Positions 365-42,390 of a DNA stretch of 48,260 bases are shown in pieces. A model generated the notes under the pieces. It did not search any database. It was not told where the DNA came from and saw nothing but the letters and a program-made list of their open reading frames with translations. Position numbers and translations under genes: made by a program. Origin of the DNA: an uncultured Bacteroidota bacterium (GTDB lineage Bacteria; Bacteroidota; Bacteroidia; Chitinophagales; Saprospiraceae); the NCBI GenBank assembly GCA_903933805.1, contig CAIZLM010000236.1:1-48260 (forward strand), written 5' to 3'. Every line of letters begins with the position of its first letter. Positions within the stretch are counted from its first letter, which is position 1.

Positions 365-441
365 GAACTGGTTAGTTGGTCGCTTCTGAGACAAAAAAAT
401 AGGCCTTTTAGGGCCAGACAGCGTGCGACCAAACCAATTAC
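365..441 (-). mobile_element. MITE-like palindromic element, short form, copy 1 (reverse orientation)
   Basis: Short form of the dispersed element, with the CTGAGAC end first and the GGGCCAGACAGCGTG end second, closing with CCAATTAC. The first terminal base pair is damaged (GAACTGG for GTAACTGG) and no target duplication is visible, so this looks like an old copy. It sits between the peroxidase and the protease, both on the plus strand. Confidence 0.8.
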
Positions 442-465
442 TATTCTGGAAATACCCTAATAAAC

Positions 466-492
466 AAGCGGCTCAGGCCGCTTTTCTTTTTT
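466..492 (+). terminator. Intrinsic terminator
   Basis: A GC-rich 7-bp stem (AAGCGGC / GCCGCTT, 466-472 and 477-483) with a TCAG loop is followed by a T-rich tract. It would end transcription from the peroxidase gene before the protease gene. Confidence 0.75.
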
Positions 493-567
493 TTATGGCT
501 TTTTTTCGTCTATTGTAGCTACTTTTACGTAATCTTCCTAAGTTATCCATAATCTAACACGTTACTT

Positions 568-2508
568 ATGCGTTTTAACATCACATTACTGGCCATATTG
601 GTGGTTTTTTCCGCCAAGGCACAAGTCAGCGGGGGCGGTTTTCCGCCCAGTTTTGATCCTGCTTATCAAGCCCTTTTTTCCAACCAAAACACGCCTATTG
701 TCTCACTAGCATCGGTTGACAGAGTTGCACTGATGGCAGAAGACGCCCATTCGCCCCTGCAAACCCGTTTCGCCGCGCCCGTTTCAGCAGATATTTCGAT
801 GCAAAACGCGGGGAAATGGACCACGCTTCCCGATGGTAGTAAGTTGTGGCAATGTGCCCTGCGTTCTCCGGGCGGGCTGGGTCTCACGCTCTTGTTTGAT
901 CAGTTTTTGTTGCCGGACAATGTTAAGTTTTACGCTTATGCTGCCGATCATCAGCGGGTATTGGGGTGTTACACCTCAGAAAGTTGTTTGCCCTCCGGAA
1001 AATTTTTAATCGGTATTGTGCCCGGTGAAACCGTTTATATGGAGTGCGTAATGCCGGCGGATGTTGTGGGAGCAACGCTTGTACACCTCTATCGGGCGGA
1101 TGTAGCGTATGACAGCCATGCGATGAACGGGGCGGATTTTGATTTTGGAGGTTCGTCGCCCTGCAATGTCAACGTGAATTGCCCAACCGGGAACAACTGG
1201 CAAGCAGAGAAAAAAGGCATTGCACGCATCCTTATGGTGTTTCAGGGTGGAGAGGCTTGGTGTAGTGGTACTTTGATCGCCAATACCGCTGGTACTTTTG
1301 ACCCGTATTTGCTCACAGCCCAACACTGCCAACTGCTGTTGCCAAATCCCGAATTTGATCTCTGGCGCTTTGACTTTAATTACGAGGCCCCCGGTTGCAC
1401 CAATCCAGCAACCGAACCTGCTCCAAAATCAGTACTGGGCTGTACGCGGATTTCTTACCGGGCTGAAACAGATTTTATGTTGTTGAAAACCAATCCCATA
1501 CCTGTCAACTACGATGTGTATTTCAATGGCTGGGATCGGGACAACACCACCACCACGCTGTCACCCAATACCGTGATGATCCACCATCCTTTTGGCGATA
1601 TTAAAAAAATAACGGTTGATACCCAGTCGGCAATTATTCATCCAAACCAACTCAATTGGGGGAGCGTTTATGGTATAAGTCCAACCAATACACACTGGAA
1701 AACGGTCCCGGATATTGGCATCCAACAACCGGGCTCTTCCGGAAGCCCGCTTTTTGATGCCAGCAAGCGCATTCGTGGCCAATTGCACGGCGGCAGCGTG
1801 AGCCCATCCAACCCATGCATCATGACGGGTGTTTATTACGGGAGATTCAACCAATCTTGGGATCAAGCAGGCACCAACAGCACCAACCGCCTTCGGGAGT
1901 GGCTGGATCCGGCTGGCACCAATGTGGTGACCCAAAATGGCTATGTGCGCCCTTTGCCGGTTGGATTTAAGGTAAGTGGTACCGTGACCACCCATTGGGG
2001 TATTCCGATGCCCAACACCACCGTGCGGTTGACGGAATCAAGTGGCACATCTGTTGTCGTTGTCACGGACACATTGGGTCGGTTCGTTTTTGAAAATGTA
2101 GCGGGAGGAGGCTCCTATAGTGTTCTGCCCGAGCGGGACATCAACGACCTGAATGGCATCACGACCCTCGACATGGTGCTCATATCAAAGCATATTTTGG
2201 GCATCCAGTCGCTGAATTCTCCTTGGAAGATGATTGCGGCAGACGTCAACAACAGCAAATCCATTACGACTTTCGATATTGTGGAGGCCCGAAAGGTGCT
2301 CTTGGGCATCTATCCGGCAATCCCGGCCACCAGTTCGTGGCGGTTTTTACCGGCAGCCACGGTGTTCTCCGATCCAAACAATCCGTTTAATGGCACGCCT
2401 GCTCCTGAAACTATTACGATTACCAACTTGCAGGCAGATTATTTACAGGCCAATTTTAAGGGGATAAAAATAGCTGATGTCAACAATTCCGCAGATCCGG
2501 GACAGTGA
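568..2508 (+). CDS. Secreted lysyl-endopeptidase-like serine protease with C-terminal dockerin-like module
   Basis: 646 residues. An N-terminal Sec signal peptide (Met-Arg then a hydrophobic stretch ending near AKAQ) directs export. A chymotrypsin-fold (S1) protease domain follows, with the likely triad His253 (LLTAQHC), Asp302 (TDFMLLK) and Ser391 (PGSSGSP). The GSSGSP serine motif and the nearby GQLHGG resemble Achromobacter lysyl endopeptidase, so Lys specificity is plausible but inferred. From about residue 468 comes a carboxypeptidase-regulatory-like beta-sandwich, then two dockerin-like Asp/Asn helices (about 525-580) ending in a KIADVNNSA motif. The same module occurs in the 1150-residue protein at 26228-29680, but here there is no type IX sorting domain after it. 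Stands alone; probably acts in external protein degradation. Confidence 0.85.
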   Translation: MRFNITLLAILVVFSAKAQVSGGGFPPSFDPAYQALFSNQNTPIVSLASVDRVALMAEDAHSPLQTRFAAPVSADISMQNAGKWTTLPDGSKLWQCALRSPGGLGLTLLFDQFLLPDNVKFYAYAADHQRVLGCYTSESCLPSGKFLIGIVPGETVYMECVMPADVVGATLVHLYRADVAYDSHAMNGADFDFGGSSPCNVNVNCPTGNNWQAEKKGIARILMVFQGGEAWCSGTLIANTAGTFDPYLLTAQHCQLLLPNPEFDLWRFDFNYEAPGCTNPATEPAPKSVLGCTRISYRAETDFMLLKTNPIPVNYDVYFNGWDRDNTTTTLSPNTVMIHHPFGDIKKITVDTQSAIIHPNQLNWGSVYGISPTNTHWKTVPDIGIQQPGSSGSPLFDASKRIRGQLHGGSVSPSNPCIMTGVYYGRFNQSWDQAGTNSTNRLREWLDPAGTNVVTQNGYVRPLPVGFKVSGTVTTHWGIPMPNTTVRLTESSGTSVVVVTDTLGRFVFENVAGGGSYSVLPERDINDLNGITTLDMVLISKHILGIQSLNSPWKMIAADVNNSKSITTFDIVEARKVLLGIYPAIPATSSWRFLPAATVFSDPNNPFNGTPAPETITITNLQADYLQANFKGIKIADVNNSADPGQ

Positions 2509-2591
2509 ACACAGTCACTTGGTGGTGTATCATCCCAAGGTTTTTTACCTTAGCGGCTTACAATTGTTTTTGAGACAATCCATAGAATATC

Positions 2592-3842
2592 ATGCCTACA
2601 CCGACTTTTCAGCACAGCGCCAAAGAGCGCTTTTTACACTACGTCACCATTGATACGCAAAGTGACCCGGACAGCCCCACCTGTCCCAGCACAGAAAAAC
2701 AAAAAAATCTTGGCAAAGTGCTGGTAGCAGAACTATTGTCCATGGGTATCAGCGACGCACACCTCGATGAACATGGGTATGTATATGCCACTATTCCGGC
2801 CAATACCGAAAAAAAAGTATCCGTAATTTGTTTCTGCTCGCACATGGATACGTCACCTGACTGTTCGGGTGACGGTGTAAAGCCACTGGTGCACCACAAT
2901 TACCAGGGAGAAGACTTGGTTTTGCCCGACGACAACACTGTGGTGATACGCATGGCAGAACATGAGGATCTACAGCACCAAATGGGCCATGATATTGTTA
3001 CAGCCAGTGGTACCACGCTCTTGGGTGCTGACAACAAAGCAGGTGTGGCAGCCATCATGGATGCGACCAATTTGCTGCTCCAACATCCCCACCTAAAACA
3101 CGGTAAAATTCGTATTTTGTTTACCCCGGATGAGGAAATCGGCCGCGGAGTTGACAAGGTAGATATGAAAAAACTAGGGGCTAAATTTGGCTACACCATT
3201 GATGGTGAGACGGCAGGCAGCCTTGAAAACGAAACCTTCAGTGCGGATGGTGCGGTGATTACCATCCACGGGGTATCGTCACACCCGGGCTTTGCCAAGG
3301 GGAAAATGGAAAATGCCCTGAAAATTGCCGCGCGTATTGTCGCCAAATTCCCCGATAAGTTGAGTCCCGAACACACCGAAAGTAAGCAAGGTTTTATCCA
3401 CCCAGTGCATTTTGAAGGGAACATTGAAAAAGCGACCATCAAATGTATCATCCGGGATTTTACCGAGGCGGGTCTAAAACGTCATGCTAAAACACTTCAA
3501 AACATCGTGGACAACGCAATCAAGCCGTTTCCCAACAGCCGCGCTGAAATCAAAATTTCAGAACAGTACCGGAATATGGGCAAGATGCTTCGTCGTCACC
3601 CGCAGGTCGTCGCCAATGCCCTAGAGGCGCTGCAACGTGCAGGATTCGACCAGCCAAAAATGAGTTCTATTCGGGGTGGTACAGACGGATCCCGGTTGTC
3701 CTTCATGGGGCTCCCCTGTCCCAATCTTTTCGCTGGGGAACATGCGTTTCACTCCAAGCAGGAGTGGGTGTCCATTCAGGACATGGAAAAAGCAGCCGAA
3801 ACCATCGTTCATTTGGCGCAGGTTTGGGAGGAGCGGTCCTAG
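2592..3842 (+). CDS. pepT: Peptidase T (tripeptide aminopeptidase, M20B)
   Basis: 416 residues, the normal length for PepT, a cytoplasmic di-zinc aminopeptidase that releases the N-terminal residue of tripeptides. Visible metal and catalytic residues match the family: His84 and Asp86 in SHMDTSPD, Asp147 in LLGADNKAG, the general base Glu181 and ligand Glu182 in TPDEEIG, Asp204 in DGET, and a His near 387 in EHAFHSKQEW. No signal peptide. The ATG at 2592 precedes the conserved start of the domain. It follows the secreted protease by 83 bp on the same strand, fitting use of peptides released outside the cell, though co-transcription is not shown. Confidence 0.93.
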   Translation: MPTPTFQHSAKERFLHYVTIDTQSDPDSPTCPSTEKQKNLGKVLVAELLSMGISDAHLDEHGYVYATIPANTEKKVSVICFCSHMDTSPDCSGDGVKPLVHHNYQGEDLVLPDDNTVVIRMAEHEDLQHQMGHDIVTASGTTLLGADNKAGVAAIMDATNLLLQHPHLKHGKIRILFTPDEEIGRGVDKVDMKKLGAKFGYTIDGETAGSLENETFSADGAVITIHGVSSHPGFAKGKMENALKIAARIVAKFPDKLSPEHTESKQGFIHPVHFEGNIEKATIKCIIRDFTEAGLKRHAKTLQNIVDNAIKPFPNSRAEIKISEQYRNMGKMLRRHPQVVANALEALQRAGFDQPKMSSIRGGTDGSRLSFMGLPCPNLFAGEHAFHSKQEWVSIQDMEKAAETIVHLAQVWEERS

Positions 3843-4031
3843 CGATTGGTCAATTAAGCGATTAAGAGAATGTGGTTTTTTGGTTAATTCGAATGGTTTA
3901 GGTCTTTTTTTTGTGAAAAAATACGTACCTTTTAGCCTATTTTCTCGTGTTCAGTCAAAGGATGCATGGTTTTGCTTTCGTTTTTCTGTGACGAGCACAC
4001 GCTATTTTCACCTATAAACAAACCATTTGCC

Positions 4032-4445: not shown

Positions 4446-4529
4446 CATCCTGAAAATCCACATCCAGTCATTGAAACCTGTAAGATTGTTCAAAGACTGG
4501 ATGTGGCATTTTATCAGGAGCAATGTGGA

Positions 4530-5192: not shown

Positions 5193-5221
5193 GATAAATG
5201 TGTGTTTTGAACATTAAGAAA

Positions 5222-5256: not shown

Positions 5257-5271
5257 CATTGGGTTGGTAAA

Positions 5272-5360
5272 AAAAGTGCCGAACACACCGCTACGACCAC
5301 ATATCCTTGCTGCATTTCTGCCCTGGGGAGGTTTTGCAGGAGCTGGTCGCCCGGCACGCC
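5272..5360 (-). ncRNA. ffs: Small signal recognition particle RNA (4.5S type)
   Basis: Read on the minus strand, the RNA folds into one long hairpin. Near the ends GUGCCG (5357-5352) pairs with CGGCAC (5281-5276), and CGACCA pairs with UGGUCG further in. The tip carries the SRP domain IV pattern: CCCCAGG, a short GCA/UGC stem closed by a GAAA tetraloop, then AGCAAGG. This CAGG/AGCA internal loop is the Ffh (SRP54) binding site. A run of seven U follows the last pair, and a TATCTTTG promoter box sits just upstream. About 90 nt, right for the small bacterial type. It would act with Ffh and FtsY in membrane protein targeting. Ends are approximate. Confidence 0.85.
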
Positions 5361-5361
5361 A

Positions 5362-5470: not shown

Positions 5471-5481
5471 GTTGTCGTTTT

Positions 5482-5644
5482 GTAAGTGGTTGGGTGGTAC
5501 GCTGTCTGGCCCAAAAAGGCCCATTTTCCGCCATTTTCCGCAGATTTTTTTGACCGTAGCGCTGCTACGGCCTACAAAAATCCGCTTCGTTTGGCAAAAA
5601 ATGGTCACTTTTTTGTCTCAGACGCGACCAAGCCAACCAGTTAC
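5482..5644 (+). mobile_element. MITE-like palindromic element, long form, copy 2, with 8-bp target duplication
   Basis: 163 bp from GTAAGTGG to CCAGTTAC. The flanks are perfect 8-bp direct repeats, GTCGTTTT at 5474-5481 and 5645-5652, the mark of transposition. The middle carries a smaller palindrome around GTAGCGCTGCTAC. It lies between the terminator at 5430-5470 and the 3' end of the ABC-F gene. Confidence 0.9.
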
Positions 5645-5688
5645 GTCGTTTTTTGATTTTTTGAGGCAGCAGAAAACCCCAACAGCAC

Positions 5689-7596: not shown

Positions 7597-7604
7597 AACG
7601 GCCG

Positions 7605-7733: not shown

Positions 7734-7812
7734 GTAACTGGTTGGGGAGTACGCTGTCTGGCCCAAAAAGGCCCATTTTTTCGTCTCAGACGCGACCACG
7801 CTAACCAGTTAC
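7734..7812 (+). mobile_element. MITE-like palindromic element, short form, copy 3
   Basis: 79 bp from GTAACTGG to CCAGTTAC, the best-kept short form. Flanks TATGAAAC (7726-7733) and TAGGAAAT (7813-7820) agree at 6 of 8 positions, as for a worn target duplication. Its last base is the first base of the triplet complementary to the symporter stop codon, so the insertion defines the 3' end of that gene. Confidence 0.88.
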
Positions 7813-13380: not shown

Positions 13381-13456
13381 GTAACTGGTTAGGTGGCACG
13401 CTTTATTGCCCAAAAAGCGGCCATTTTTTTTCTCAGACGCGACCACCAAACCAGTT
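13381..13456 (+). mobile_element. MITE-like palindromic element, short form, copy 4
   Basis: Starts GTAACTGGTTAGGTGGCACG and ends with ACCAAACCAGTT; the last two bases of the right end and several internal bases have diverged (CTTTATTGCCC for CTGTCTGGCCC). No clear target duplication, suggesting an older copy. Confidence 0.8.
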
Positions 13457-13526: not shown

Positions 13527-16154
13527 TCAATCGAGCAGTAATTCAAACTCTACACGACGGTTTAGGTCACGGCCTTCTGCGGTCAGGTTATCGGCAATGG
13601 GTCGGCTTTCTCCAAATCCGGCATGGCGCAGTCGTTCGGTCTTGATACCTCTGAACACCAAGTAATCGTAGCACGTTTTGGCGCGATCCTGCGATAGGGT
13701 GAGATTCCGTTCTTCACCACCGATATCATCGGTGTAACCGCTGATCGAGAGGGTGTATGCTGGGTTTTCGCGCATAATGATCACAATTTCATCCAAGATA
13801 TCGTAGGACTGGTTTTTCAAAATCGCACGACCTGTTTCAAACTGTACCGCCCTGGCAGCATATGCCAGTCGCTCTTTTACCTCTTTTTTTACCTCTGGGC
13901 AGCCAAAATTGCTGGCAGGACCAAATGCCGCTGGACATTTGTCAATATTATCAGCAACCTTGTCGCCATCGGTGTCGGGGCAACCTCCATAGGTGCCTGC
14001 TTTGTCGGGGCATGGATCCGTCTTGTCCGGAACACCGTCACCATCGCGGTCTGCTTCAGATTTCAACTCCGGGCATCCGTTGTTCTTGACCGTTCCCGGT
14101 TTGCTGGGGCACTTGTCATCCTTGTCAGCAACGCCATCGCCGTCTGTATCCGGACAACCACGGAGCGATCCGGCAACATTGGGACATTGGTCTGTGTCGT
14201 CTGTGAAGCCGTCGCTGTCAGCGTCGCGAATGGGGCATCCTTTGTTGGCCAGGGTACCGGGCTCGTTGGGACATTTATCCTCTTTGTCCGTTATACCATC
14301 GCCATCAGCATCGCGTATGGGGCATCCCATATTTGAAACAGGTCCTGCCTCATTCGGGCATTTATCGTCTTTGTCTGTGATACCATCCCCATCTGCGTCG
14401 CGCATTGGGCAACCATTGTTTTTCAAGGTGCCTGCTTCATTGGGACATTTGTCGTCTTTGTCGGCAATACCATCACCATCTGCATCTCGTACTGGGCAAC
14501 CGTTGTTTGCGACCGTACCTGCCTCGTTGGGGCATTTGTCGTCTTTGTCCAAGATGCCATCGCCATCGGTGTCTCGTACTGGGCAACCGTTGTTTGCGAC
14601 CGTACCTGCCTCATTGGGGCATTTGTCGTCTTTATCAAAGATGCCATCGCCATCGGTGTCTTTTACCGGGCAACCGTTGTTGGCAGCGGTACCGGCTTCA
14701 TTGGGGCATTTATCGTCTTTGTCCAAGATGCCATCGCCATCGGTGTCTTTTACCGGGCAACCGTTGTTGGCAGCGTTACCTGCCTCATTGGGGCATTTAT
14801 CGTCTTTGTCTAAGATGCCATCGCCATCGGTGTCTTTTACCGGGCAACCGTTGTTGGCAGCGGTACCGGCTTCATTGGGGCATTTGTCGTCTTTGTCTAA
14901 GATGCCATCGCCATCGGTGTCTTTTACCGGGCAACCGTTGTTGGCAGCGGTACCGGCCTCATTGGGGCATTTATCGTCTTTGTCCAAGATGCCATCGCCA
15001 TCGGTGTCTTTTACCGGGCAACCGTTGTTGGCAGCGGTACCGGCTTCATTGGGGCATTTGTCGTCTTTGTCTAAGATGCCATCGCTGTCGGCATCGAGCA
15101 CAGGAGGGCAACCGTTGTTGGCAGCGGTACCGGCTTCGTTGGGGCATTTGTCGTCTTTATCGGCAACACCATCACCGTCTGCATCTGGGCAACCTTTGAG
15201 TTTGCCTGCTTCATTGGGGCAAAGATCAATGTTATCTGCTACTCCATCACGGTCTGTATCGGCAGAAGGGGGGCAACCTTTGTTGTCCGACGTACCCGGT
15301 TCTGTGGGGCATTTGTCATCTTTGTTTGGGATGCCATCAAAATCCGTATCCGGGCAACCTTTGATGGTACCGGCTTCTGTCGGGCAGTCGTCGGTTGCAT
15401 TGGCAACACCGTCTTTGTCATAGTCCGGGCAACCTTTTGTATCGAGAACGCCAGCTTCATCGGGGCAGAGATCATCCGAATCTGCCACGCCATCGCTGTC
15501 ACGGTCTGGGCAACCAAGGGTTGTAGCAGGGCCGGCATCGTTGGGGCATTTGTCGATTTTGTTGACGACGCCATCTTTATCGTCGTCTATGGAGAAGGTT
15601 GCGGGCTTAGCCGCGGGTTTAGCGGGTGGTTTTTCAGCGACGTGGAATACATAAACACAACCCACGCCAAATTGCAAATTATCGCGATCACTGACGATGG
15701 ATTTTCGGTATTCCGCTTGCAGGCTGAGGTAGGTATTTTTTGAAACAAGAAAATGTACCCCTCCGCCCAGCGGGAATTGAAGATGTCCATTTTCAAAGCC
15801 CTCCAGCACATAACCTGCACCTGCGCAGGCGAATGGCACAATTTTGCTGTCACTGCCCATGTTCTCGAAGCGCAGTACGAAGTCTGCGCTGGTGATGACC
15901 GTATTGATGGTTGCGCCAGCCAATTTGGCCAAGCCAAGTTTTACAGGTATTCCCAAGTTGATATTAGGCGCAACATTTCGGAAGTAACCGAATTCAAATT
16001 GCTGGCCGACGTTTACCTTGCCGTTGTACAACAATCCGTAGTCAATGGCATTTAATTTGACATGGAAAGCGTTGGGGTTGGCTGAGTTTTGGGAAAAAAC
16101 GTGTGTTAAAAATAGGCAAAAAGCCAATGGAAGGAGTAAACTGAATTTTCGCAT
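13527..16154 (-). CDS. OmpA-family outer membrane protein with 20 thrombospondin type 3 repeats
   Basis: 875 residues from the ATG at 16154, which begins a clear signal peptide (MRKFSLLLPLAFCLF, cut near VFSQ); upstream in-frame ATGs would put a second hydrophobic stretch in front. An N-terminal beta-barrel-like domain (about 25-190) is followed by 20 calcium-binding TSP3 units of the form D-x-D-x-DG-xx-D-xx-D-x-CP ending in GCP, then an OmpA peptidoglycan-binding domain (ARAVQFETGRAIL, SGYTDDIGG, NRRVEFELLL). It should tether the outer membrane to the cell wall through a long Ca2+-stiffened linker. Several central repeats are almost identical in DNA. A shorter paralogue with six repeats lies at 31543-32949. 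Confidence 0.93.
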   Translation of the reverse strand: MRKFSLLLPLAFCLFLTHVFSQNSANPNAFHVKLNAIDYGLLYNGKVNVGQQFEFGYFRNVAPNINLGIPVKLGLAKLAGATINTVITSADFVLRFENMGSDSKIVPFACAGAGYVLEGFENGHLQFPLGGGVHFLVSKNTYLSLQAEYRKSIVSDRDNLQFGVGCVYVFHVAEKPPAKPAAKPATFSIDDDKDGVVNKIDKCPNDAGPATTLGCPDRDSDGVADSDDLCPDEAGVLDTKGCPDYDKDGVANATDDCPTEAGTIKGCPDTDFDGIPNKDDKCPTEPGTSDNKGCPPSADTDRDGVADNIDLCPNEAGKLKGCPDADGDGVADKDDKCPNEAGTAANNGCPPVLDADSDGILDKDDKCPNEAGTAANNGCPVKDTDGDGILDKDDKCPNEAGTAANNGCPVKDTDGDGILDKDDKCPNEAGTAANNGCPVKDTDGDGILDKDDKCPNEAGNAANNGCPVKDTDGDGILDKDDKCPNEAGTAANNGCPVKDTDGDGIFDKDDKCPNEAGTVANNGCPVRDTDGDGILDKDDKCPNEAGTVANNGCPVRDADGDGIADKDDKCPNEAGTLKNNGCPMRDADGDGITDKDDKCPNEAGPVSNMGCPIRDADGDGITDKEDKCPNEPGTLANKGCPIRDADSDGFTDDTDQCPNVAGSLRGCPDTDGDGVADKDDKCPSKPGTVKNNGCPELKSEADRDGDGVPDKTDPCPDKAGTYGGCPDTDGDKVADNIDKCPAAFGPASNFGCPEVKKEVKERLAYAARAVQFETGRAILKNQSYDILDEIVIIMRENPAYTLSISGYTDDIGGEERNLTLSQDRAKTCYDYLVFRGIKTERLRHAGFGESRPIADNLTAEGRDLNRRVEFELLLD
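14480..15105 (-). repeat. Tandem 87-bp repeats inside the OmpA/TSP3 gene
   Basis: An 87-bp unit (29 codons) recurs with constant spacing; the same marker sequence CGGTGTC falls at 14567, 14654, 14741, 14828, 14915 and 15002. The units differ by only a few bases, while the outer TSP3 units of the gene are much more diverged. This is recent unequal duplication within a coding region and a likely place for length change or assembly error. Confidence 0.93.
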
Positions 16155-25182: not shown

Positions 25183-25246
25183 CAACTGGTTTGGGTGTCG
25201 CGTCTGATACAAAAAAGTAGCCTTTTTGGGGCCAGACAGCGTGGTT
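25183..25246 (-). mobile_element. MITE-like element fragment, copy 5 (reverse orientation)
   Basis: Begins CAACTGGTTTGGGTGTCGCG, continues with CTGATACAAAAAAGTAG and GGCCAGACAGCGTGG, but the second terminal repeat (AACCAGTTAC) has been lost next to the rlpA stop codon. No target duplication remains. Confidence 0.75.
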
Positions 25247-26152: not shown

Positions 26153-26220
26153 GTAACTGGTTATGTGGCGCGCTGTCTGGCCCAAAAAAGCCCACTTTTA
26201 CGCCTCAGACGCGACCATCC
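26153..26220 (+). mobile_element. MITE-like element, copy 6, right end decayed
   Basis: Starts GTAACTGGTTATGTGGCGCG, then CTGTCTGGCCC and CTCAGACGCGACCA; the terminal AACCAGTTAC has been lost, ending 8 bp before the stop codon of the 1150-residue protein gene. It lies between rlpA (5' side) and that gene (3' side). Confidence 0.78.
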
Positions 26221-26227
26221 ATCAAAT

Positions 26228-29680: not shown

Positions 29681-29712
29681 GGTTGTACAGTAAGTTCAAG
29701 GGTAATAAAGCC

Positions 29713-29790
29713 GTAACTGGGTGGGTGGGAAGCTGACTGGCCCAAAAAGGACTACTTTTTTGTCTCAGACGCATCCACCCAACCAGTTAC
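29713..29790 (+). mobile_element. MITE-like palindromic element, short form, copy 7, with 8-bp target duplication
   Basis: 78 bp from GTAACTGG to CCAGTTAC, flanked by perfect direct repeats ATAAAGCC at 29705-29712 and 29791-29798. It lies between the divergent starts of the 1150-residue protein gene and the DMT transporter gene, that is within the regulatory region of both. Confidence 0.93.
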
Positions 29791-29824
29791 ATAAAGCCTA
29801 TCTTTCCGCCAAAATTACAACTGA

Positions 29825-30703: not shown

Positions 30704-30704
30704 A

Positions 30705-30716
30705 TTAACCAGTTAC
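30705..30716 (-). mobile_element. Single MITE terminal repeat
   Basis: TTAACCAGTTAC, an element right end standing alone 11 bp before the complete copy at 30728-30806. It may be left from an earlier insertion or a nested deletion. Confidence 0.5.
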
Positions 30717-30727
30717 GCTGTAATAAA

Positions 30728-30806
30728 GTAACTGGATAGCGTGGTCGCGTCTGAGACAAAAAAGTGGACCTTTTTGGGCCAGACAGCGTGCCACTTAACC
30801 AGTTAC
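30728..30806 (-). mobile_element. MITE-like palindromic element, short form, copy 8 (reverse), with 8-bp target duplication
   Basis: 79 bp from GTAACTGG to CCAGTTAC in reverse orientation (CTGAGAC end first). Perfect direct repeats GTAATAAA flank it at 30720-30727 and 30807-30814. It sits between the transporter and oxidase subunit genes, 18 bp before the latter's ATG. Confidence 0.93.
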
Positions 30807-30824
30807 GTAATAAAATAAAAAATC

Positions 30825-31542: not shown

Positions 31543-32949
31543 ATGAAGCAAATTTTTACTATTTTCTGTTTGGCTATAGTCGTATTGCTAGCCCAGCAGG
31601 GCGCTTTCGCACAGCCTACTGATGGGATTACTTTTCGGCAAAACTGGTACAACTACGTTGCACCAAATCCTGCTTGGGAAGATTGGAACGATGTGTACGA
31701 AAAGGTCGATGGACGCGGTTTTGAAATAGGCTACAACCGCAATCTTTCTAAACACACTTGGTTGTATGTACCTGCCAAAATTGGTGTGGCGCAATTCGCC
31801 GCAGGCCGCAAAAATGAACTGGGTGGCAACCTTGACGTCATTTTCCAAAACAATCTCTTTCGCCACGGCGCCCTCATCAATCCGACAGTTTCTCTTGGCG
31901 TGGGTACAACGTACAATTTTGGCGCAAAAGAGTTCGATGTGAACATTCCAGCCTCGATTGGCCTCAACATTCGTCTGATGTCCAATCTGTACGCCAATGT
32001 ACAATCTCAATACCGCTTCTCACTGGACAGCCGCCCGGGATGGCATCACGGTGTTGGCCTTGTCACGTACTTCGGAGAATCCAACCCCGACCGCGACAAA
32101 GATGGCATCGCCGACAAAGATGATACATGTCCCGATGTGCCCGGTGTTGCAGCCATGTTGGGTTGCCCGGACAAAGATGGTGATATGATCACCGATGCCG
32201 AAGACGACTGCCCCGATGTAAAAGGCCTCGCGGCTTTTAAAGGATGCCCCGATACCGACAATGACGGCATCAAAGACGCGGACGATAAATGCCCACTCGA
32301 AGCTGGTCCTGCGGCCAACAACGGCTGCCCTGTGCTCGACCGTGATGGCGACGGCATCAACGACAACGTTGACAAGTGCCCGGATGCCAAAGGCCCTGCG
32401 GCTACTGGAGGATGCCCGGATCGCGATGCAGATGGCGTAGCCGACAAAGACGATGCTTGTCCAGATAAAAAAGGCACTTCAATGCACAAAGGTTGCCCGG
32501 ATACGGATGGTGATGGTATTTATGACAACGATGACCGTTGCCCTGAAAAGCCAGGTGTCGCCGCATTAAACGGCTGCCCAGAAGTTAAAAAAGAAGACAA
32601 AGCCAAATTAGAGCGCGCTGTGAAACTCGTGCAGTTCGAACTTGGCAAGGATGTGTTGCTCGCCACCTCATTCCCAATACTTGACGAAGTAGTATCGGTG
32701 ATGAAACAATACAGCGAGTACAGCCTCAGCATCACAGGTCACACAGACAACCAAGGTGATGACAAACTAAACCTGGATCTGTCACAACGCCGTGCAAAGC
32801 GTTGCTATGACTACCTGTTGACCAAGGGCGTTGCAGCTACTCGGATGTCGTTCACCGGATTGGGCGAAACCCAGCCGGCTGGTGACAACAAAACGGCCGC
32901 CGGCCGCGAACAAAACCGCCGTGTGGTGTTTGAGTTGTTCGTAAAATAA
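31543..32949 (+). CDS. OmpA-family protein with six thrombospondin type 3 repeats
   Basis: 468 residues: signal peptide (MKQIFTIFCLAIVVLLAQQG, cut near AFAQ), an N-terminal beta-barrel-like domain (about 25-180), six TSP3 calcium-binding units (DRDKDGIADKDDTCP and relatives) and a C-terminal OmpA domain (VKLVQFELGKDVLL, ITGHTDNQG, SQRRAKRCYDYL, NRRVVFELFV) that binds peptidoglycan. It is a paralogue of the 875-residue protein at 13527-16154 with the same architecture but far fewer repeats. A hairpin terminator follows at 32976-33014. Confidence 0.94.
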   Translation: MKQIFTIFCLAIVVLLAQQGAFAQPTDGITFRQNWYNYVAPNPAWEDWNDVYEKVDGRGFEIGYNRNLSKHTWLYVPAKIGVAQFAAGRKNELGGNLDVIFQNNLFRHGALINPTVSLGVGTTYNFGAKEFDVNIPASIGLNIRLMSNLYANVQSQYRFSLDSRPGWHHGVGLVTYFGESNPDRDKDGIADKDDTCPDVPGVAAMLGCPDKDGDMITDAEDDCPDVKGLAAFKGCPDTDNDGIKDADDKCPLEAGPAANNGCPVLDRDGDGINDNVDKCPDAKGPAATGGCPDRDADGVADKDDACPDKKGTSMHKGCPDTDGDGIYDNDDRCPEKPGVAALNGCPEVKKEDKAKLERAVKLVQFELGKDVLLATSFPILDEVVSVMKQYSEYSLSITGHTDNQGDDKLNLDLSQRRAKRCYDYLLTKGVAATRMSFTGLGETQPAGDNKTAAGREQNRRVVFELFVK

Positions 32950-32975: not shown

Positions 32976-33014
32976 AAAAGCGCCACTCCGGATTGTACGG
33001 GGTGGCGCTTTTCT
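32976..33014. terminator. Intrinsic terminator of the second OmpA gene
   Basis: 15-bp arms (32976-32990 and 32998-33012) starting AAAAGCGCCAC with one G-T pair, followed by TTCTG. A/T runs on both sides allow use from the BrkB side too. Confidence 0.75.
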
Positions 33015-33045
33015 GTGTCAAACGCGACCACGCTAACCAGGTACC
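33015..33045 (+). mobile_element. MITE right-end fragment
   Basis: GTGTCAAACGCGACCACGCT followed by AACCAGGTAC, matching the right end of the dispersed element; the left half is absent. Confidence 0.6.
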
Positions 33046-34037: not shown

Positions 34038-34148
34038 GTATTTTGCTGGCTTCAAAGGAATATATGGTTTGAATGTGTGAAGGCGGACGAAAAAAAGGCA
34101 ACTGTAGTGCAGGTATTGAGACCGAACAACGCGCAACACGCTTAAAAA

Positions 34149-34311
34149 GCAACTGGTTAGATGGTACGCTGTCTGGCCCAAAAAGGCCCATTTTCCGCCA
34201 TACTTTGCAGATTTTTTTGACCGTAGCGCTGCTATGGCCTACAAAAATCCACTTCGTCTGGCAAAAAATGGCCACTTTTTTGTCTCAGACGCGACCACGC
34301 TAACCAGTTAC
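34149..34311 (+). mobile_element. MITE-like palindromic element, long form, copy 9, with 8-bp target duplication
   Basis: 163 bp from GCAACTGG to CCAGTTAC, same length as copy 2 and nearly identical to it inside (the GTAGCGCTGCTA core and TTTTTTTGACC). Perfect direct repeats CTTAAAAA flank it at 34141-34148 and 34312-34319. It ends next to the thioesterase stop codon (34313), so the right target copy lies inside that gene's 3' end. Confidence 0.94.
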
Positions 34312-34312
34312 C

Positions 34313-34720
34313 TTAAAAATACGGTGCCAATTTTTCCAATACGTATTCTGGCGCTGGCACCACTTTTTTCAAGGTGGCATCAAAAAAACATAGTTTGACG
34401 CGACCTGCATTGATGCGTTTTTTTTGTTCGTTGAACAACTCAACATGGAATGTGATGTACGCATCGGGCAAAGCATGAATTTCTGTGCGCACCGTAATCA
34501 AATCGTCGTAATAGGCCGGACGGATGAAGCGCATCTCCAAGTTTACCACCGGCAGCCAAATTCCATGCTCCTCTTCCAGGGCTTTATAGGAAATCCCCAA
34601 AGAGCGAATGGTTTCTACACGCCCTACCTCATAATATTCGGCGTAATTACCGTAATACAGGTAGCCCATCTGGTCGGTTTCGCCATAGCGAACACGTATG
34701 ATCGTTTCGAACGAATACAT
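34313..34720 (-). CDS. Acyl-CoA thioesterase (YbgC/4HBT hotdog family)
   Basis: 135 residues from the ATG at 34720. A GTG 21 bp upstream is rejected because it overlaps a TACTTTTG promoter box at 34741-34748. The hotdog signature VRYGETDQMGYLYYGNYAEYYEVGR contains the catalytic Asp in TDQMG, as in 4-hydroxybenzoyl-CoA and YbgC thioesterases, which cleave acyl-CoA thioesters in the cytoplasm. VNLEMRFIRPAYYDD and the RVKLCFFD strand complete the fold. Substrate unknown. The 3' end was touched by a MITE insertion whose target duplication reaches into the last codons. Confidence 0.9.
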   Translation of the reverse strand: MYSFETIIRVRYGETDQMGYLYYGNYAEYYEVGRVETIRSLGISYKALEEEHGIWLPVVNLEMRFIRPAYYDDLITVRTEIHALPDAYITFHVELFNEQKKRINAGRVKLCFFDATLKKVVPAPEYVLEKLAPYF

Positions 34721-37503: not shown

Positions 37504-38772
37504 TCAAAGTTCCTCTCTTTCAATGGGGCAAGTCATGCAGTGACTGCCACCCCTGGCGCGTGACAATTCATTGGAAGGGATGGTAATGATGGTGTTTTCC
37601 ACCTTTTCTGGATCCACCTTGCCATTTTCGATATCCCGCAGTAGTTTCTGCGCGCCGACCACCTTGTATCCGAAGTCTTTGAATGCTTTTTCCGTGATGG
37701 GATTTCGGTCGTAGGTGATTGCTACGCCGGGTTTCAAGGCAACCAGGTTGCAGCCGTCGGTCCATTGTTCGCGCTCTTGATAAGGCGTTTCCCCGCGACC
37801 AGCCCAGATAAACTCCATTTTCGGGTTTATTTCTGCCAGTAAAAAATCTTTCAGGCAAGCGTATTCAACCTCTTCACCATTGGATCGGTGTACCTCCACG
37901 TAAGATCCCAGACCGTCTTGAACAATGGGTTTATACCCCACCATGTGGTTGACATTGATTTGGGAAAATACCGTATCAATGTGCATATAAGTTCGCTCAG
38001 CGGGTATGTTTACTTGCACCACATTGTTGATAATACCGCGTTCGAACAGGTAGTTTTTCACCATTTGGAAGGCATATTCGTTGGTGCGTTCGGAGCAGCC
38101 AATGAGCAGGTAATCTTTGTGGAGCATCATGACGTCACCGCCTTCGATGCTGATGGTTTCTCCGCGTTTGTTGGGGGGGAATTTGTCTACCCGGTTCAGG
38201 TTGATGGTTTTTCCATCGGCTTTCAGGCGTCGGAAGATGGGGTGGCTGCTAAAAATAAGCCTCGTGAGAAAATTTTCCCGAAAGCGGGCTGATTTATTGG
38301 CCTTGGTAATGATCACATGGTCTTTGACCGTGACTGCGATGTCACGGGTAAAGATAAGATTTGGAATGGGGTCAAATAAAATACGATCTTCCGGCTCCAG
38401 GTAGCCGGTGATGAGCGTATCGGCCAATTGTTCGGGCGAGAGCCCGGCCAGTCGGGGTATGAATGAGTAAGGCAGTTCCTCAAAATCGGTGATTTTATTG
38501 ATCACCTCGTACCTGCTCTCTTCGTTTCGGGTGCTTTCTGCGAGTAAATCGCGGACTTCAAATACATTTTCCTTGCCGAGAAAAGCTTGTAGTACGCCGA
38601 CAAAAATATCGTGTTCTTCCTGCATATTGGGCAGGTGTACAATGTCGTCGAAAAGAAGCTCGCCCGCCCGCTTGGGGGTGATCCGCGCGATCCCTTCGTC
38701 GGGCCGGTGTACAATGACTTTTTTCAGTTTTCCGATTTCAGATTCAACGTAAATGCGGCTATTTGCGTCCAT
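37504..38772 (-). CDS. arcA: Arginine deiminase
   Basis: 422 residues. ADI converts arginine to citrulline and ammonia. Guanidinium-binding and catalytic segments are present: IFTRDIAVTV, EGGDVMMLH, the His in YMHIDTVFSQI, and the nucleophile Cys412 in GGSHCMTCPIERE near the C-terminus. No carbamate kinase or ornithine carbamoyltransferase gene is beside it, so it may not form the classical arcABC energy pathway; arginine use or pH defence is possible. Transcription probably starts at the TACTTTTG box at 38834-38841. Confidence 0.93.
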   Translation of the reverse strand: MDANSRIYVESEIGKLKKVIVHRPDEGIARITPKRAGELLFDDIVHLPNMQEEHDIFVGVLQAFLGKENVFEVRDLLAESTRNEESRYEVINKITDFEELPYSFIPRLAGLSPEQLADTLITGYLEPEDRILFDPIPNLIFTRDIAVTVKDHVIITKANKSARFRENFLTRLIFSSHPIFRRLKADGKTINLNRVDKFPPNKRGETISIEGGDVMMLHKDYLLIGCSERTNEYAFQMVKNYLFERGIINNVVQVNIPAERTYMHIDTVFSQINVNHMVGYKPIVQDGLGSYVEVHRSNGEEVEYACLKDFLLAEINPKMEFIWAGRGETPYQEREQWTDGCNLVALKPGVAITYDRNPITEKAFKDFGYKVVGAQKLLRDIENGKVDPEKVENTIITIPSNELSRARGGSHCMTCPIEREEL

Positions 38773-38833
38773 AATTTTTTTATGATTAACTTTGGTAGGG
38801 CTGTCTCCTCGGTTTTGTCAGAGGATACGACCA

Positions 38834-38841
38834 CAAAAGTA
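38834..38841 (-). promoter_or_regulatory. -7 box (TACTTTTG) of arcA
   Basis: Perfect TAnnTTTG box on the minus strand, 61 bp before the arcA ATG. A TTTTC about 20 bp upstream may serve as -33. The remaining gap to 39063 shows no gene that I can support. Confidence 0.55.
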
Positions 38842-39063
38842 GATCGAATATTCGGTCAAGTGAAAACTAGTACCGCGTCCAGTGAATAATATTACAACAC
38901 ATACGGCAAATGGTTGGTTTATCTGGGCTTGAAGCAGGCAAAATACTGGACAATTAAGCGTTACGGGGAAACAATATCCACTTGTTGTGGGAATATGCAA
39001 GGTGGCGGCATATAGTAGTTGTCTCGATTGAGCACGTTTTATCAATTGCCTCCCAATTGGTTT

Positions 39064-39228
39064 GTAATTGGTTGGGTGGCACGCTGTCTGGCCCAAAAAG
39101 GCCCATTTTCCGCCAGATTTCGCCCATTTTTTTGACCGTATCGCTGCTATGACCTACAAAAATGGACGCTGTCTGGCAAAAAAAATGGCCACTTTGTTGT
39201 CTCAGGCGCGACCACGCTAACCAGTTAC
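39064..39228 (+). mobile_element. MITE-like palindromic element, long form, copy 10, with 8-bp target duplication
   Basis: 165 bp from GTAATTGG to CCAGTTAC. Perfect direct repeats ATTGGTTT at 39056-39063 and 39229-39236. The inner part repeats the left-end motif (ACGCTGTCTGGC at about 39167), showing how the long form contains a second copy of an end segment. The right duplication ends 3 bp before the TACCTTTG promoter box of the FG-GAP gene. Confidence 0.94.
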
Positions 39229-39238
39229 ATTGGTTTTA

Positions 39239-39246
39239 TACCTTTG
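39239..39246 (+). promoter_or_regulatory. -7 box (TACCTTTG) before the FG-GAP lipoprotein gene
   Basis: Perfect TAnnTTTG box 29 bp before the ATG at 39275. The position where the -33 element should lie is now the right end of the MITE copy, so the insertion may have changed promoter strength. Confidence 0.6.
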
Positions 39247-39274
39247 TGGCTCTAATTTAATTTATCAGAAACGT

Positions 39275-41572
39275 ATGAGCCTTCCATTCATCTGTATCAA
39301 ATACCAACGGGCCATCCCATTTATTTTCTTTTGTGGGTTAATGTTGCTCGGAGGGGCCTCTTGTAAGCACCAAGATGATCCTAAAAACGGTGAAAAGCAG
39401 CCTGCATCGCACCAAAAAATGATTGCAATCCTGGCTGGCGTTGCGCAACAACTCAACAACCCGCAAAACAATTATGCCGCCGATGCCAAGTTGGCCAAGT
39501 GCAATGCCATGTTGGCGGCAAACAAAAATCCCGTTGATCAAATAAACCTCTTGTCTCAAAAATCAAATATTCTCCTGGAGCTCGGTGATGAGGCAGAGGC
39601 CGTTAAAATAATGGAACAACTCAAGGTGCTGCTGAAAAGTGATCCAGCAGGCCTAAAACAGGTATATCCTGTATTGGGTATGGCGTATTTGCGCTTGGCC
39701 GAACGCAACAACTGCATCAACAACCAAAGCCAGGAATCCTGTATTATGCCGATACAGGGGAAGGGCGTTCACCAAGACAAAGCGCCGTCCAGAAAAGCAG
39801 TAAATGCCTTTGAAATGGCCATGTCCCTGAATCCTGACGACCTCGATTCGCGCTGGTTGTTGAATATCGCCTACATGACGCTTGGTGAGTACCCCGGAAA
39901 AGTCCCCAAGGCATGGCTGATCCCAGGATTAGACAATGCTGGCGCCGTTCGGGTGAAACCTTTTTCCGATATGGCCGGCGATTTGGGCATCGGCGTCAAA
40001 AATCGCGGCGGCGGCAACATTGTAGAGGATTTCAACAACGACGGATACCTCGACATTGTGAGCTCCGCCTGGGGACTCGATGACCCCATCCACTATTACA
40101 AAAACAATGGTGATGGCACTTTTAAAGACGTCTCCCGCGCGTCTGGCTTGAGTGCAATCATGGGTGGACTCAATATGATTCAAGCAGATTACAACAACGA
40201 CGGATGGATGGATATATTTGTGTTGCGTGGCGCCTGGCAAGGGCAAACAGGCTTTGGCGAACAACCCAATTCACTGCTCCGCAACAACGGAAACGGCACC
40301 TTCACCGACGTAACCATTGACGCCGGATTGTTGACCTATCAACCTACGCAGACGGGCACTTGGAATGATTTCAACCACGATGGATGGATTGATTTGTTTA
40401 TCGGCAACGAGAGTACCAATCCCAACGACCTTCACCCGTGTGAGTTTTTTATCAACAACGGCGATGGCACTTTTGATAACATCTCTACCCAAGGCAGTGT
40501 CTTTTATATTTCCAAGTTTGTAAAAGGGGTTGCATCCGGTGATTACGACAACGATGGCTGGGTGGATATTTTCTTGTCGTGCTTCAGTGGAGAAAAAATT
40601 CTGCTGCGCAACAAAGGCATTGCCGGCAAGGTCCCTGCGTTTGAAGATGTTTCTGCGCAAGCCGGTTTCACAGGTCTAAATTCCCGTACATTTCCAACCT
40701 GGTTTTTTGATTATGACAATGATGGCTGGCTTGATATTTTCACGTGCAACTACGAATTTGGTCGACCACTATCCTATTATGCCGCCAAAGAAGCCCTCAA
40801 ACCTTCCAGCGATATGTCGGGCAAAATATACCTGTACCACAACAATGGCAACGGGACGTTCACAGACAAGAGCCCGACGATGCACGTAAATCAGGTTTGC
40901 TTTGCGATGGGGGCCAATTTTGGTGATATTGACAACGATGGCTTTTTGGATTTCTACCTTTCTACCGGAAACCCTAATTTTCAGTCGCTGGTGCCCAACA
41001 GGTTGTACAAAAATATGGGCGGTAAGGATTTTGCCGATGTTTCGGTGTCTTCCCGAACGGCCAATTTACAAAAAGGGCATGCTGTTTCATTTGCCGACAT
41101 CAACAACAACGGTGACCAGGATATCTCTGTCGATATGGGTGGTGCTTACCGGGGAGACGCCTTCTACAGTTCTTTGTTCCTCAATCCCGGCCAAAACAAC
41201 AACAACTGGATCTGTATAAAACTGGAGGGAACATCCTCAAATCGGGCGGCCATTGGCGCAAAGCTTGCGTTGAAATTTCGGGAGAATGGTGTTGAACGCA
41301 CCGTTTACCGGGACGTCAACTCCGGTGGCAGTTTCGGCTGCTCCCCACTTCGACGAGAAATAGGCATCGGACAAGCCACGGTAATTGATGAAATTAATGT
41401 CTTTTGGCCGGCAAGTGGTATCCGACAGGTGCTGAAAAACGTGCATCCCAACCAGTTCATCCAACTCAAAGAAGGACAGGAGGGGTTTTCCACCGTCCCC
41501 TTAAAAGCCCTGGTGTTCAAGAGGATTGACGGCACCATACCCATGTGCGCCAATCCAGCACTAGGCCAGTAG
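39275..41572 (+). CDS. FG-GAP/VCBS repeat lipoprotein with ASPIC/UnbV C-terminal domain
   Basis: 765 residues from the ATG at 39275. Lipoprotein-type signal (PFIFFCGLMLLGGASC) predicts anchoring at an outer membrane. Residues about 35-230 look helical (TPR-like); the middle carries at least seven calcium-binding FG-GAP blades with D-x-[DN]-x-DG-xx-D motifs (DFNNDGYLDI, DYNNDGWMDI, DFNHDGWIDL, DYDNDGWVDI, DYDNDGWLDI, DIDNDGFLDF, DINNNGDQDI), a beta-propeller; the end (GAKLALKF, GCSPLRREIGIG, IDEINVFWPASG) is an ASPIC/UnbV domain as in CRTAC1-like proteins. Likely surface binding or adhesion; no enzyme site seen. Confidence 0.9.
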   Translation: MSLPFICIKYQRAIPFIFFCGLMLLGGASCKHQDDPKNGEKQPASHQKMIAILAGVAQQLNNPQNNYAADAKLAKCNAMLAANKNPVDQINLLSQKSNILLELGDEAEAVKIMEQLKVLLKSDPAGLKQVYPVLGMAYLRLAERNNCINNQSQESCIMPIQGKGVHQDKAPSRKAVNAFEMAMSLNPDDLDSRWLLNIAYMTLGEYPGKVPKAWLIPGLDNAGAVRVKPFSDMAGDLGIGVKNRGGGNIVEDFNNDGYLDIVSSAWGLDDPIHYYKNNGDGTFKDVSRASGLSAIMGGLNMIQADYNNDGWMDIFVLRGAWQGQTGFGEQPNSLLRNNGNGTFTDVTIDAGLLTYQPTQTGTWNDFNHDGWIDLFIGNESTNPNDLHPCEFFINNGDGTFDNISTQGSVFYISKFVKGVASGDYDNDGWVDIFLSCFSGEKILLRNKGIAGKVPAFEDVSAQAGFTGLNSRTFPTWFFDYDNDGWLDIFTCNYEFGRPLSYYAAKEALKPSSDMSGKIYLYHNNGNGTFTDKSPTMHVNQVCFAMGANFGDIDNDGFLDFYLSTGNPNFQSLVPNRLYKNMGGKDFADVSVSSRTANLQKGHAVSFADINNNGDQDISVDMGGAYRGDAFYSSLFLNPGQNNNNWICIKLEGTSSNRAAIGAKLALKFRENGVERTVYRDVNSGGSFGCSPLRREIGIGQATVIDEINVFWPASGIRQVLKNVHPNQFIQLKEGQEGFSTVPLKALVFKRIDGTIPMCANPALGQ

Positions 41573-41650
41573 CACCACTATTGTACAGTAGCTTCCGGGG
41601 TAATGGCGTTCATTGGCTGCGGTAACAGGAAACTGATGTGGAGGCTTTTT

Positions 41651-41684
41651 CATGGGCGGTTCGGGATTTCTCGAACCGCCCATG
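41651..41684. terminator. Hairpin terminator between convergent genes
   Basis: Perfect 13-bp arms (41651-41663 and 41672-41684, CATGGGCGGTTCG and complement), 8-nt loop, preceded by CTTTTT on the plus strand. It separates the FG-GAP gene from the convergent beta-barrel gene. A smaller palindrome (41688-41704) overlaps the stop codon of the latter. Confidence 0.55.
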
Positions 41685-41699
41685 AGTAATAATGCGGCA

Positions 41700-42287
41700 T
41701 TATTTCTTGTTGTCCACGCCTATTCGATAACCAATTTTGAGGTTGATGGGCAAATCAAAGTTTACAAAAGGAACATCGGTGAGGTCTGCTTCATTTGTCC
41801 CATTCAGGTCTTCAAACTTGTACACGAATGCCCGACCAAAACCAATCCCCAAATCAAAAATTATACGCTCGTTTTTTGAAACAATTTTTCCGCCAATCAA
41901 AAATCCACCAGCGACACGTGTTGATTTAAATTCGTCTTTTTCGTTGGTGTCGGGGTTGGTAAAGGAATACTTTCCGCCGCCAAAACGGGTATAAGCACCG
42001 GCATAAAACCCGTTTAGCTTTTTCTCTGTCGGATTGAAGTAATACCGGCCATTGATACCAAGGCGCAAGGCACTGCCCTTGTAAATATTGTCGGATACCA
42101 AGGGGAGCCGTTTCCAGTCGGCGCCGCCGGTCAATTCAATGCCGACATTGGGGCTTGCACCGACTTCCACACCCATGTTAAAATTGTTAAACAAAAGACC
42201 CAAAGGCCCTACTTTGATGTCAATTTGTGCATAGATGGCACTGGTGGAGAGAATGGCCCAGGTAAAAAAAAGAATACTGCGTTTCAT
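41700..42287 (-). CDS. Small outer membrane beta-barrel protein
   Basis: 195 residues: signal peptide (MKRSILFFTWAILSTSAIYAQ) followed by alternating short beta-strand segments with aromatic ends (YYFNPTEKKLNGFYAGAYTRFG, FDLGIGFGRAFVYKF, INLKIGYRIG). This resembles the DUF3575/porin-family eight-stranded barrels common in Bacteroidota. No enzyme motif. A near-match TACTTTTC promoter box lies upstream on the minus strand. Function unknown; possibly an envelope structural or adhesion protein. Confidence 0.85.
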   Translation of the reverse strand: MKRSILFFTWAILSTSAIYAQIDIKVGPLGLLFNNFNMGVEVGASPNVGIELTGGADWKRLPLVSDNIYKGSALRLGINGRYYFNPTEKKLNGFYAGAYTRFGGGKYSFTNPDTNEKDEFKSTRVAGGFLIGGKIVSKNERIIFDLGIGFGRAFVYKFEDLNGTNEADLTDVPFVNFDLPINLKIGYRIGVDNKK

Positions 42288-42326
42288 ATAATTGGATTGT
42301 TTAGTGAAAAGTACATACGGATGAGG

Positions 42327-42390
42327 GAAGCTGTCTGGCCCAAAAAAGGCTATTTATTTTCAAATTACACAGGTTTTTAGACAGTATCAA
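42327..42390 (+). mobile_element. Decayed MITE fragment
   Basis: GAAGCTGTCTGGCCCAAAAA is the inner left arm of the dispersed element, followed by a poor match to the long-form middle; both terminal repeats are lost. Confidence 0.55.

Follow-up and report, generated by a model that had tools for sequence, protein, structure and literature searches.

What are the palindromes that recur throughout the 48,260-nt stretch of DNA analysed here (the window), and what has placed them there? The family occupies 12 places in the window by profile search, and eight of these are near-complete copies. The original prediction, which had listed these eight copies together with several fragments and had described perfect, mutually different 8-bp direct repeats at five of the copies, agrees with our re-examination of the sequence: every item could be located (the first copy at 366–441 by profile search), and five of the eight copies carry such repeats. 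These five are the long-type copies at 5482–5644 (plus strand; 5474–5652 with the duplications GTCGTTTT at 5474–5481 and 5645–5652), 34149–34311 (plus; 34141–34319 with CTTAAAAA) and 39064–39228 (plus; 39056–39236 with ATTGGTTT), and the short-type copies at 29713–29790 (plus; 29705–29798 with ATAAAGCC) and 30728–30806 (minus; 30720–30814 with GTAATAAA). The other three are of the short type: a copy of about 77 bp at 366–441 (minus) that retains no duplication (flank match 1/8 with the left end taken at 365), one at 7734–7812 (plus) with a duplication matching at 6/8 bases, and one at 13381–13456 (plus) whose duplication has decayed to 5/8. Less complete members are a short-type copy with a decayed right end (26153–26227, plus), a short-type fragment without one end (25184–25243, minus), a long-type right-arm fragment (33006–33044, plus), a left-arm fragment (42323–42359, plus) and a lone end remnant, TTAACCAGTTAC (30705–30716, no strand assigned), which lies 11 bp before the next copy and was missed by the profile search.

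The elements come in two lengths, a short type of 77–79 bp and a long type of 163 bp, neither of which has room for a transposase gene, and both types carry identical 12-bp outer ends, GTAACTGGTTAG, within a near-complete palindrome. Folding with RNA parameters turns almost the whole element into one long hairpin, with energies of about −45 kcal/mol for the short type and of −74 and −94 kcal/mol for the two strands of the long type. At the gathering score, Rfam returned no match to the elements in the window, the sole match there being a small SRP RNA at 5270–5360. Being short and transposase-free, with terminal inverted repeats, fixed 8-bp duplications, many dispersed copies and differences between lineages, the palindromes have the attributes of MITEs. 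MITEs are already known as a kind; it is the targeting habit of the present ones that is unusual. We consider it highly probable that the palindromes of the window are MITEs, small non-coding transposons in two size classes, that were moved in trans by an IS66-type, tnpC-only transposase recognising GTAACTGGTTAG.

A left-arm motif gave 605 matches in the whole genome (4.2 Mb) compared with 3 for a reversed control, and a profile search of 41 stretches (784,577 b, window included) found 185 places, compared with none in the reversed sequence. The resulting density, one per 4.2 kb, falls within the one per 4–5 kb originally predicted, and the very large copy number that had been anticipated is borne out by an estimate of 780–990 copies genome-wide. 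Plain extrapolation gives 992, which may be too high because the sampled contigs were not random (mostly long, and with earlier matches); estimates scaled by motif counts across the whole genome are 903 and 781. Some contig ends fall within copies of the element, a point of relevance to metagenome-derived genomes.

Both ends are preserved at 136 of the 185 places. At 35 of these 136 the flanks form a perfect 8-bp duplication, all 35 being different, compared with 0.07 expected from re-paired flanks, which excludes chance. At least seven of the eight bases agree at 60 of the 136 (0.8 for re-paired flanks); the other 76 fall below seven, which counts against our explanation. The peak at 8 bp is sharp, perfect repeats of 4, 5, 6, 7, 9, 10, 11 and 12 bp numbering 7, 4, 4, 3, 0, 0, 0 and 0, respectively. 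The target preference across 53 sites is for AT-rich DNA and is otherwise weak, with T just before and A or T just after the duplication. In addition, one copy is missing between the corresponding two genes of each of the four relatives that were fetched (G004, G019, G022 and G013), in which the intergenic sequence does not visibly align with that of our genome, so that the empty target itself is unseen. The 35 distinct duplications and this gene pair lacking the element uphold the earlier claim of transposition.

Judged against crude ORF calls, 140 of the 185 places are wholly intergenic, 38 lie across an ORF edge and 7 are inside a predicted ORF, compared with 8.4% intergenic for random placement. 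The view that the elements occur only between genes thus holds for most copies but not strictly. Genes flanking 164 of the places are arranged in tandem in 86 cases, convergently in 37 and divergently in 41, and these counts track the length of intergenic DNA available in each orientation (43.3, 22.1 and 22.5 kb, respectively), so there is no pull toward convergent 3′ ends; with no orientation bias, we rejected a terminator or orientation role. The intergenic placement and the near-full-length hairpin would both be expected of domesticated palindromic repeats, REP/BIME-like or terminator-like, that act in regulation at gene ends and whose mobility is historical. We regard this origin as very unlikely, given the 8-bp duplications, the orientations that follow intergenic length and the lack of an element at the matching gene pair of the four relatives fetched. 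REP and BIME elements are palindromes without a fixed target duplication, and the 8-bp duplications here set the MITEs apart from that class.

Which transposase, then, moved the MITEs? Ends of the GTAA type and 8-bp duplications fit the IS66 family, and the MITEs have both. Indeed, the 12-mer GTAACTGGTTAG is found exactly (12/12) at the ends of single-ORF IS66-type elements in three genomes, two of the host genus and one of another genus of the family (G009, G056 and G057). The proteins of all three match PF03050, and two of them (G009 and G057) pass NCBIfam NF033517 as well; the duplications are perfect in G009 (TTTTCAGA) and G057 (AAAAAAAT) and match at 6/8 bases in G056. The host genome itself contains a tnpC remnant (63% identity over 68 aa; contig C332) adjoining CTAACCAGTTAC, a fragment whose PF03050 score of 20.7 is below the curated cut-off of 23.1. 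Families such as IS1, ISL3 and IS256 also make 8-bp duplications, which are thus not exclusive to IS66, and one of these or a similar transposase could have moved the MITEs, with the shared 12-mer arising by convergence. PF03050 elements in three genomes have the identical 12-mer at their ends, and two of the three have perfect 8-bp duplications, which renders this alternative extremely improbable.

A canonical tnpABC IS66 element is present in the genome (contig C216), assembled in full, with end bases that match at 23 of 24 positions and an 8-bp duplication, CACCGGGA, and its transposase could work in trans. Its ends, GTAAGCCTCCCAC, share only GTAA with GTAACTGGTTAG and so are not the same terminal repeats, and recognition of ends by a transposase normally takes more than GTAA; that this element mobilised the MITEs is accordingly highly improbable. 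Sequence comparison thus supports an IS66 origin for the MITEs, as originally proposed, and narrows it to the single-ORF (tnpC-only) type. The term derivative in that proposal needs one correction: the comparison does not show internally deleted copies, since the MITE interiors have no clear similarity to the G009, G056 and G057 elements beyond 12–16 bp at the ends, although a deletion from some other parent is conceivable. In the mechanism that we propose, a single-ORF IS66-type DDE transposase would recognise GTAACTGGTTAG, cut AT-rich, mostly intergenic DNA with a stagger of 8 bp and move the MITEs in trans.

No intact element with GTAACTGGTTAG ends was found in the host genome, in 41 genomes of the same genus or in 398 genomes of the family. 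The PF03050 search covered the host genome and the 41 genomes of its genus, with ends scanned in 26 loci; the search with the G009 protein covered the 398 family genomes, with ends scanned in 18 loci, of which 3 were truncated, making the end search void for those 3. The G009 gene is interrupted by two IS1-like copies, that of G056 has an internal deletion and the C-terminal part of the G057 protein has no match to the family profile. Viral contigs contained no relative, and the 141 plasmid records, compared by identity rather than by ends, were all below 60% identity. We infer that a tnpC-only transposase was the agent of movement, the source having decayed in the meantime or being absent from the assembly. 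Precisely shared ends, 8-bp duplications and a fossil within this genome link a densely distributed family of bacterial MITEs to one particular group of transposases.

Sister MITEs with GTAACTGGTTAG ends are present in G014, where 10 of 12 loci examined are two-ended and 8 of the 10 have at least seven of eight duplication bases, and G021 contains a 174-bp MITE with a different interior, GTAACTGGTTAG ends and the duplication GTATTTTG. The two copies checked in G056 match at 2/8 and 3/8 duplication bases, which counts against our explanation. With the 79-bp query, 39 relatives gave short weak matches only (best E 0.01), one of them within a G014 sister MITE. Pairs of long-type ends were found among the 398 family genomes in G021 alone besides the host genome, in a search that required both 12-mers to be perfect; with this rule, and with G014 and ten other genus members absent from the set, relatives like G014 and G056 escape it. 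Among single-end 17-mer matches in other genus members, eight loci were viewed, of which two are MITEs (G056 and G014) and the rest are chance-like. A scan of named genomes gave at least two stretches among the matches listed; a Flavobacteriales bin (L201) contains a MITE-bearing contig that was probably assigned to it in error. Median divergence from the consensus is 5% for the long type and 15% for the short type, and the pairwise distance within the long type is 1.82 times the distance to the consensus; these values suggest that the MITEs spread in star-like bursts and that the short type is older.

A new finding concerns copies that lie closely end to end. Exactly 8 bp separates the elements at 11 of 13 such junctions, and wherever the arms are readable (nine junctions) the order is head-to-tail, which together suggest insertion beside resident ends: a newcomer would sometimes target the 8 bp adjoining a resident end, leaving head-to-tail neighbours 8 bp apart. 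The head-to-tail order at nine of nine junctions is also what would be expected if the pairs had been duplicated in tandem or had transposed as dimers. We think this unlikely, as the partners often differ in type or age (a long element with a short one or a fragment), a spacer of 7–8 bp, present at 12 junctions, matches a partner's outer flank (7–8 bases) at 10 of them, and the two outer flanks match each other (7/8) at only 1 of 13, although the outer ends of fragments are only loosely located. Insertion beside resident ends may reflect a habit of IS66-type transposition in this lineage, the capture of a resident end as target, with the 8 bp beside GTAACTGGTTAG as preferred site and the newcomer placed head-to-tail as if the transposase joined one newcomer end to the resident's opposite end; we see the case for this as about evenly poised. 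If correct, repeated end capture would build 8-bp-spaced arrays and would spare genes by steering insertions to intergenic spots already occupied, helping a MITE to reach many hundreds of copies without host death or a lasting parent. The head-to-tail neighbours at a fixed 8-bp spacing raise a concrete question, namely whether IS66-group DDE transposons treat their own ends as safe places to land.

In the titles and abstract openings of the papers that our searches returned, no IS66-type MITEs are reported. The tnpC-only subgroup of the IS66 family, which we take to be the ISBst12-like elements, has in common with the MITEs the GTAA ends, the 8-bp duplications and, within the same bacterial family, the exact 12-mer; unlike these elements, the MITEs have no transposase gene, share the ends alone and are present in many hundreds of copies rather than a few. 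Cardinium belongs to Bacteroidota, and its MITECca01 resembles the present MITEs in having a Bacteroidota host, an IS origin and mostly intergenic copies, whereas here the ends are of IS66 type, the copies several times more numerous and no intact parent was found. ISBst12-like is a subgroup name in a table of the IS66 family (PMC8024623), and MITECca01 of Cardinium cOegib is IS-derived and mostly intergenic, with 169 copies making up 3.5% of the chromosome and a parent, IS982, that is still intact there (PMC9769881). ERIC and Correia elements are high-copy intergenic MITEs, ERIC reaching 711 copies in Photorhabdus luminescens (PMC10969869), and most such MITEs have a 5′-TA-3′ terminal motif (PMC2229807); ours are similarly intergenic and numerous but differ in their ends, their 8-bp duplications and their link to an IS66-type transposase. 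Finally, IS30 targets its own inverted repeats (PMC9333248) and so resembles the MITEs in using a transposon end as target, whereas here the spacer is fixed at 8 bp, the length of the duplication, and the arrangement is head-to-tail.

All copies of the short, non-coding palindromic transposon (MITE) that the original prediction had named in the window proved real; as it had described, perfect flanking 8-bp repeats, each distinct, border five of the eight that are near-complete. A very large copy number genome-wide, which it had also anticipated, was borne out: in the host assembly (336 contigs, 4,206,178 bases; the window is contig C236) the arm ACGCTGTCTGGCCCAAAAA has 605 matches with at most three mismatches, versus 3 for the backwards pattern, and the end GTAACTGGTTNGNGTGG has 418 with at most one. 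At the same stringency, 41 other members of the genus have 0–3 matches each to this end (reversed controls, 0–5), and in the host the long-type spacing with both 12-bp ends perfect occurs at 69 places. A profile search of 41 stretches (784,577 bases) found 185 MITE places, which make up 2.6% of these bases; the reversed stretches gave none. Three scalings give genome-wide estimates of 781, 903 and 992 copies, of which 992 may be too high because the stretches behind it were drawn from contigs already known to have matches. Some contig ends fall within copies (for example C2:1–163), so part of the copies has probably been lost in assembly. These findings confirm a MITE family that is very abundant and has IS66-type ends.

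The family comprises two types with common arms: 66 aligned short copies give a 77-bp consensus and 70 long copies one of 163 bp, the long type having an extra palindromic middle. A single imperfect palindrome spans nearly the whole MITE, and both ends of the long consensus carry the same outer 12 bp, GTAACTGGTTAG. Among 136 two-ended copies, the 8-bp duplication is perfect in 35 (null expectation 0.07) and matches at seven or more of its bases in 60 (null expectation 0.8); the 35 perfect duplications are 35 different sequences with a G+C content of 21%. Perfect duplications flank 27 of the 70 long copies (median divergence from consensus 5%) and 8 of the 66 short copies (15%). Duplications decay as copies diverge; among long copies, those below 5% divergence have perfect ones in 19 of 35 cases and those above 12% in 0 of 13. 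The 70 long copies all differ from one another, so the latest burst was not extremely recent.

The claim that copies lie only between genes very nearly held: 140 of the 185 places are fully intergenic, as compared with 8.4% under random placement, but 7 lie inside ORFs predicted by crude calls. Just two ORFs of at least 500 codons hold a MITE (598 and 678 codons), near an edge in both, and gene orientation around copies tracks intergenic length. The MITE at 5482 has a small SRP RNA gene (RF00169; window 5270–5360, minus strand) ~120 bp away. Elsewhere in the window, protein-coding repeats of roughly 75–90 bp, presumably thrombospondin type-3-like, occupy 13917–15599 and 32085–32556 on opposite strands.

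For comparison with relatives, we used the host copy with duplication TTTATTTT, which sits between genes that we take, from their translations, to be purine nucleoside phosphorylase-like and bile-acid/sodium symporter-like. Among the matches listed, the two genes are adjacent in four relatives (G004, G019, G022 and G013), and neither GTAACTGG nor its complement occurs between them in any of these; a second copy's gene pair, in one stretch of one genome (G044), likewise has no MITE. Since the intergenic sequences of relatives and host have no visible alignment, the proposed comparison established absence of the MITE but not a bare target site.

The host genome contains three matches to the IS66-type transposase profile PF03050. 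The element on C216, of the complete three-gene type, has ends GTAAGCCTCCCAC and duplication CACCGGGA; these ends differ from those of the MITE. That on C180 is of the single-ORF type, with ends GTAACTATCCAGCC and without duplication, and direct repeats at 104-bp spacing lie just outside it (L086 3511–3750). The C186 match is decayed and related to C216. In addition, contig C332 contains half a MITE, a 163-bp MITE and a piece of the transposase gene tnpC, which has 63% identity over 68 aa to the protein of the relative G009 and scores 20.7 bits against PF03050, under the 23.1 cut-off. This piece terminates in CTAACCAGTTAC, indicating that the right transposase group was once present in this genome.

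IS66-type elements with terminal repeats matching those of the MITE, sought on the strength of the original prediction, were found in three other genomes. The single-ORF element of G009 (L189 594–3723) has ends GTAACTGGTTAGCCT and duplication TTTTCAGA; its gene is split by two inserted copies (690–1460 and 2826–3596) with identical proteins, which we take to be IS1-like. In G057, from another genus of the same family, an element (L235 3036–4589) shares these 12 bp at its ends and carries duplication AAAAAAAT, and the PF03050 match of its protein stops at position 246 of 284. In G056, a member of the host genus, the element (L234 350–1399) has the ends, a gene without its middle and a duplication matching at 6 of 8 bases. 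An end search of 18 loci found a pair of ends in 11, with a perfect 8-bp duplication in 5 of these (G057 included); 3 of the 7 loci without such a pair were incomplete, and most ends apart from those already described were GTAACTATTTAG, GTAACTATTCAG or near it.

Relatives also harbor sister families. G014 has a 162-bp family with the same ends and 66–74% identity over longer matches; both ends are present at 10 of 12 loci, 8 of these 10 having at least seven of eight duplication bases (4 perfect). A palindromic 174-bp MITE in G021 (L241 1501–1674, contig C3) combines the same 12-mer with another interior and duplication GTATTTTG, and G056 has one long copy (87% identical) and one short copy, neither with a duplication. 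Unlike interiors behind one end sequence are consistent with mobilisation in trans. A 4,096-bp contig of a Flavobacteriales bin (L201, CAJAVU010000113.1) starts inside a near-consensus long MITE; it is probably misbinned, from the host lineage.

A whole-genome scan of the host for pairs of outward ends, each a perfect 10-mer, at 0–30 bp spacing detected 13 junctions, and none in the reversed control. The spacer is exactly 8 bp in 11, 7 bp in one and 11 bp in one. All nine junctions with readable arms on either side are head-to-tail; the other four have only a lone end or fragment on one side, and by best score three of them read head-to-tail and one (C76, L250) as like ends facing each other. 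Of the 12 junctions whose spacer is 7–8 bp long, and with fragments' outer ends only loosely located, 10 have a spacer that matches a partner's outer flank at seven or more bases and two do not; at the 11-bp junction, this match is shifted by 3 bp. The partner whose outer flank matches the spacer is the later arrival. Alternatively, a dimer arriving as a unit could have produced the closely spaced pairs, but this predicts matching outer flanks, which were observed (7 of 8 bases) in 1 of 13 junctions. We favor a mechanism in which an incoming MITE would take the 8 bp adjoining a resident end as its target, and such target use, our findings suggest, accounts for the junction spacing. Of 17 neighbouring ends (at least 9 of 10 bases) in the sampled stretches, a count in which some pairs figure from both sides, 13 are at a distance of 7–8 bp, and the window copy at 30728 has an end remnant 11 bp away. 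At the L254 (C137) and L257 (C222) junctions, full copies are accompanied by mini-palindromes (about 35 and 41 bp) that consist of scarcely more than a back-to-back pair of GTAACTGGTT-like ends.

This 8-bp, head-to-tail landing is the part likely to surprise specialists, the MITE being an already known kind of element. No report of an IS66-type MITE was found by title or abstract start, in a search whose coverage excluded most subscription papers. Correia copies are even more numerous in N. meningitidis, and we therefore claim no copy-number record. Small mobile sequences have been reviewed (PMC2229807), an IS30 network is covered elsewhere (PMC9333248), and further related literature exists (PMC3852290, PMC8024623). 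A review that gives up to 711 copies for ERIC contains no mention of 'IS66' (PMC10969869). MITEs of P. syringae are linked to IS5 and Tn3 types (PMC3189936), and that of Cardinium is linked to IS982, with 169 copies (3.5%; PMC9769881).
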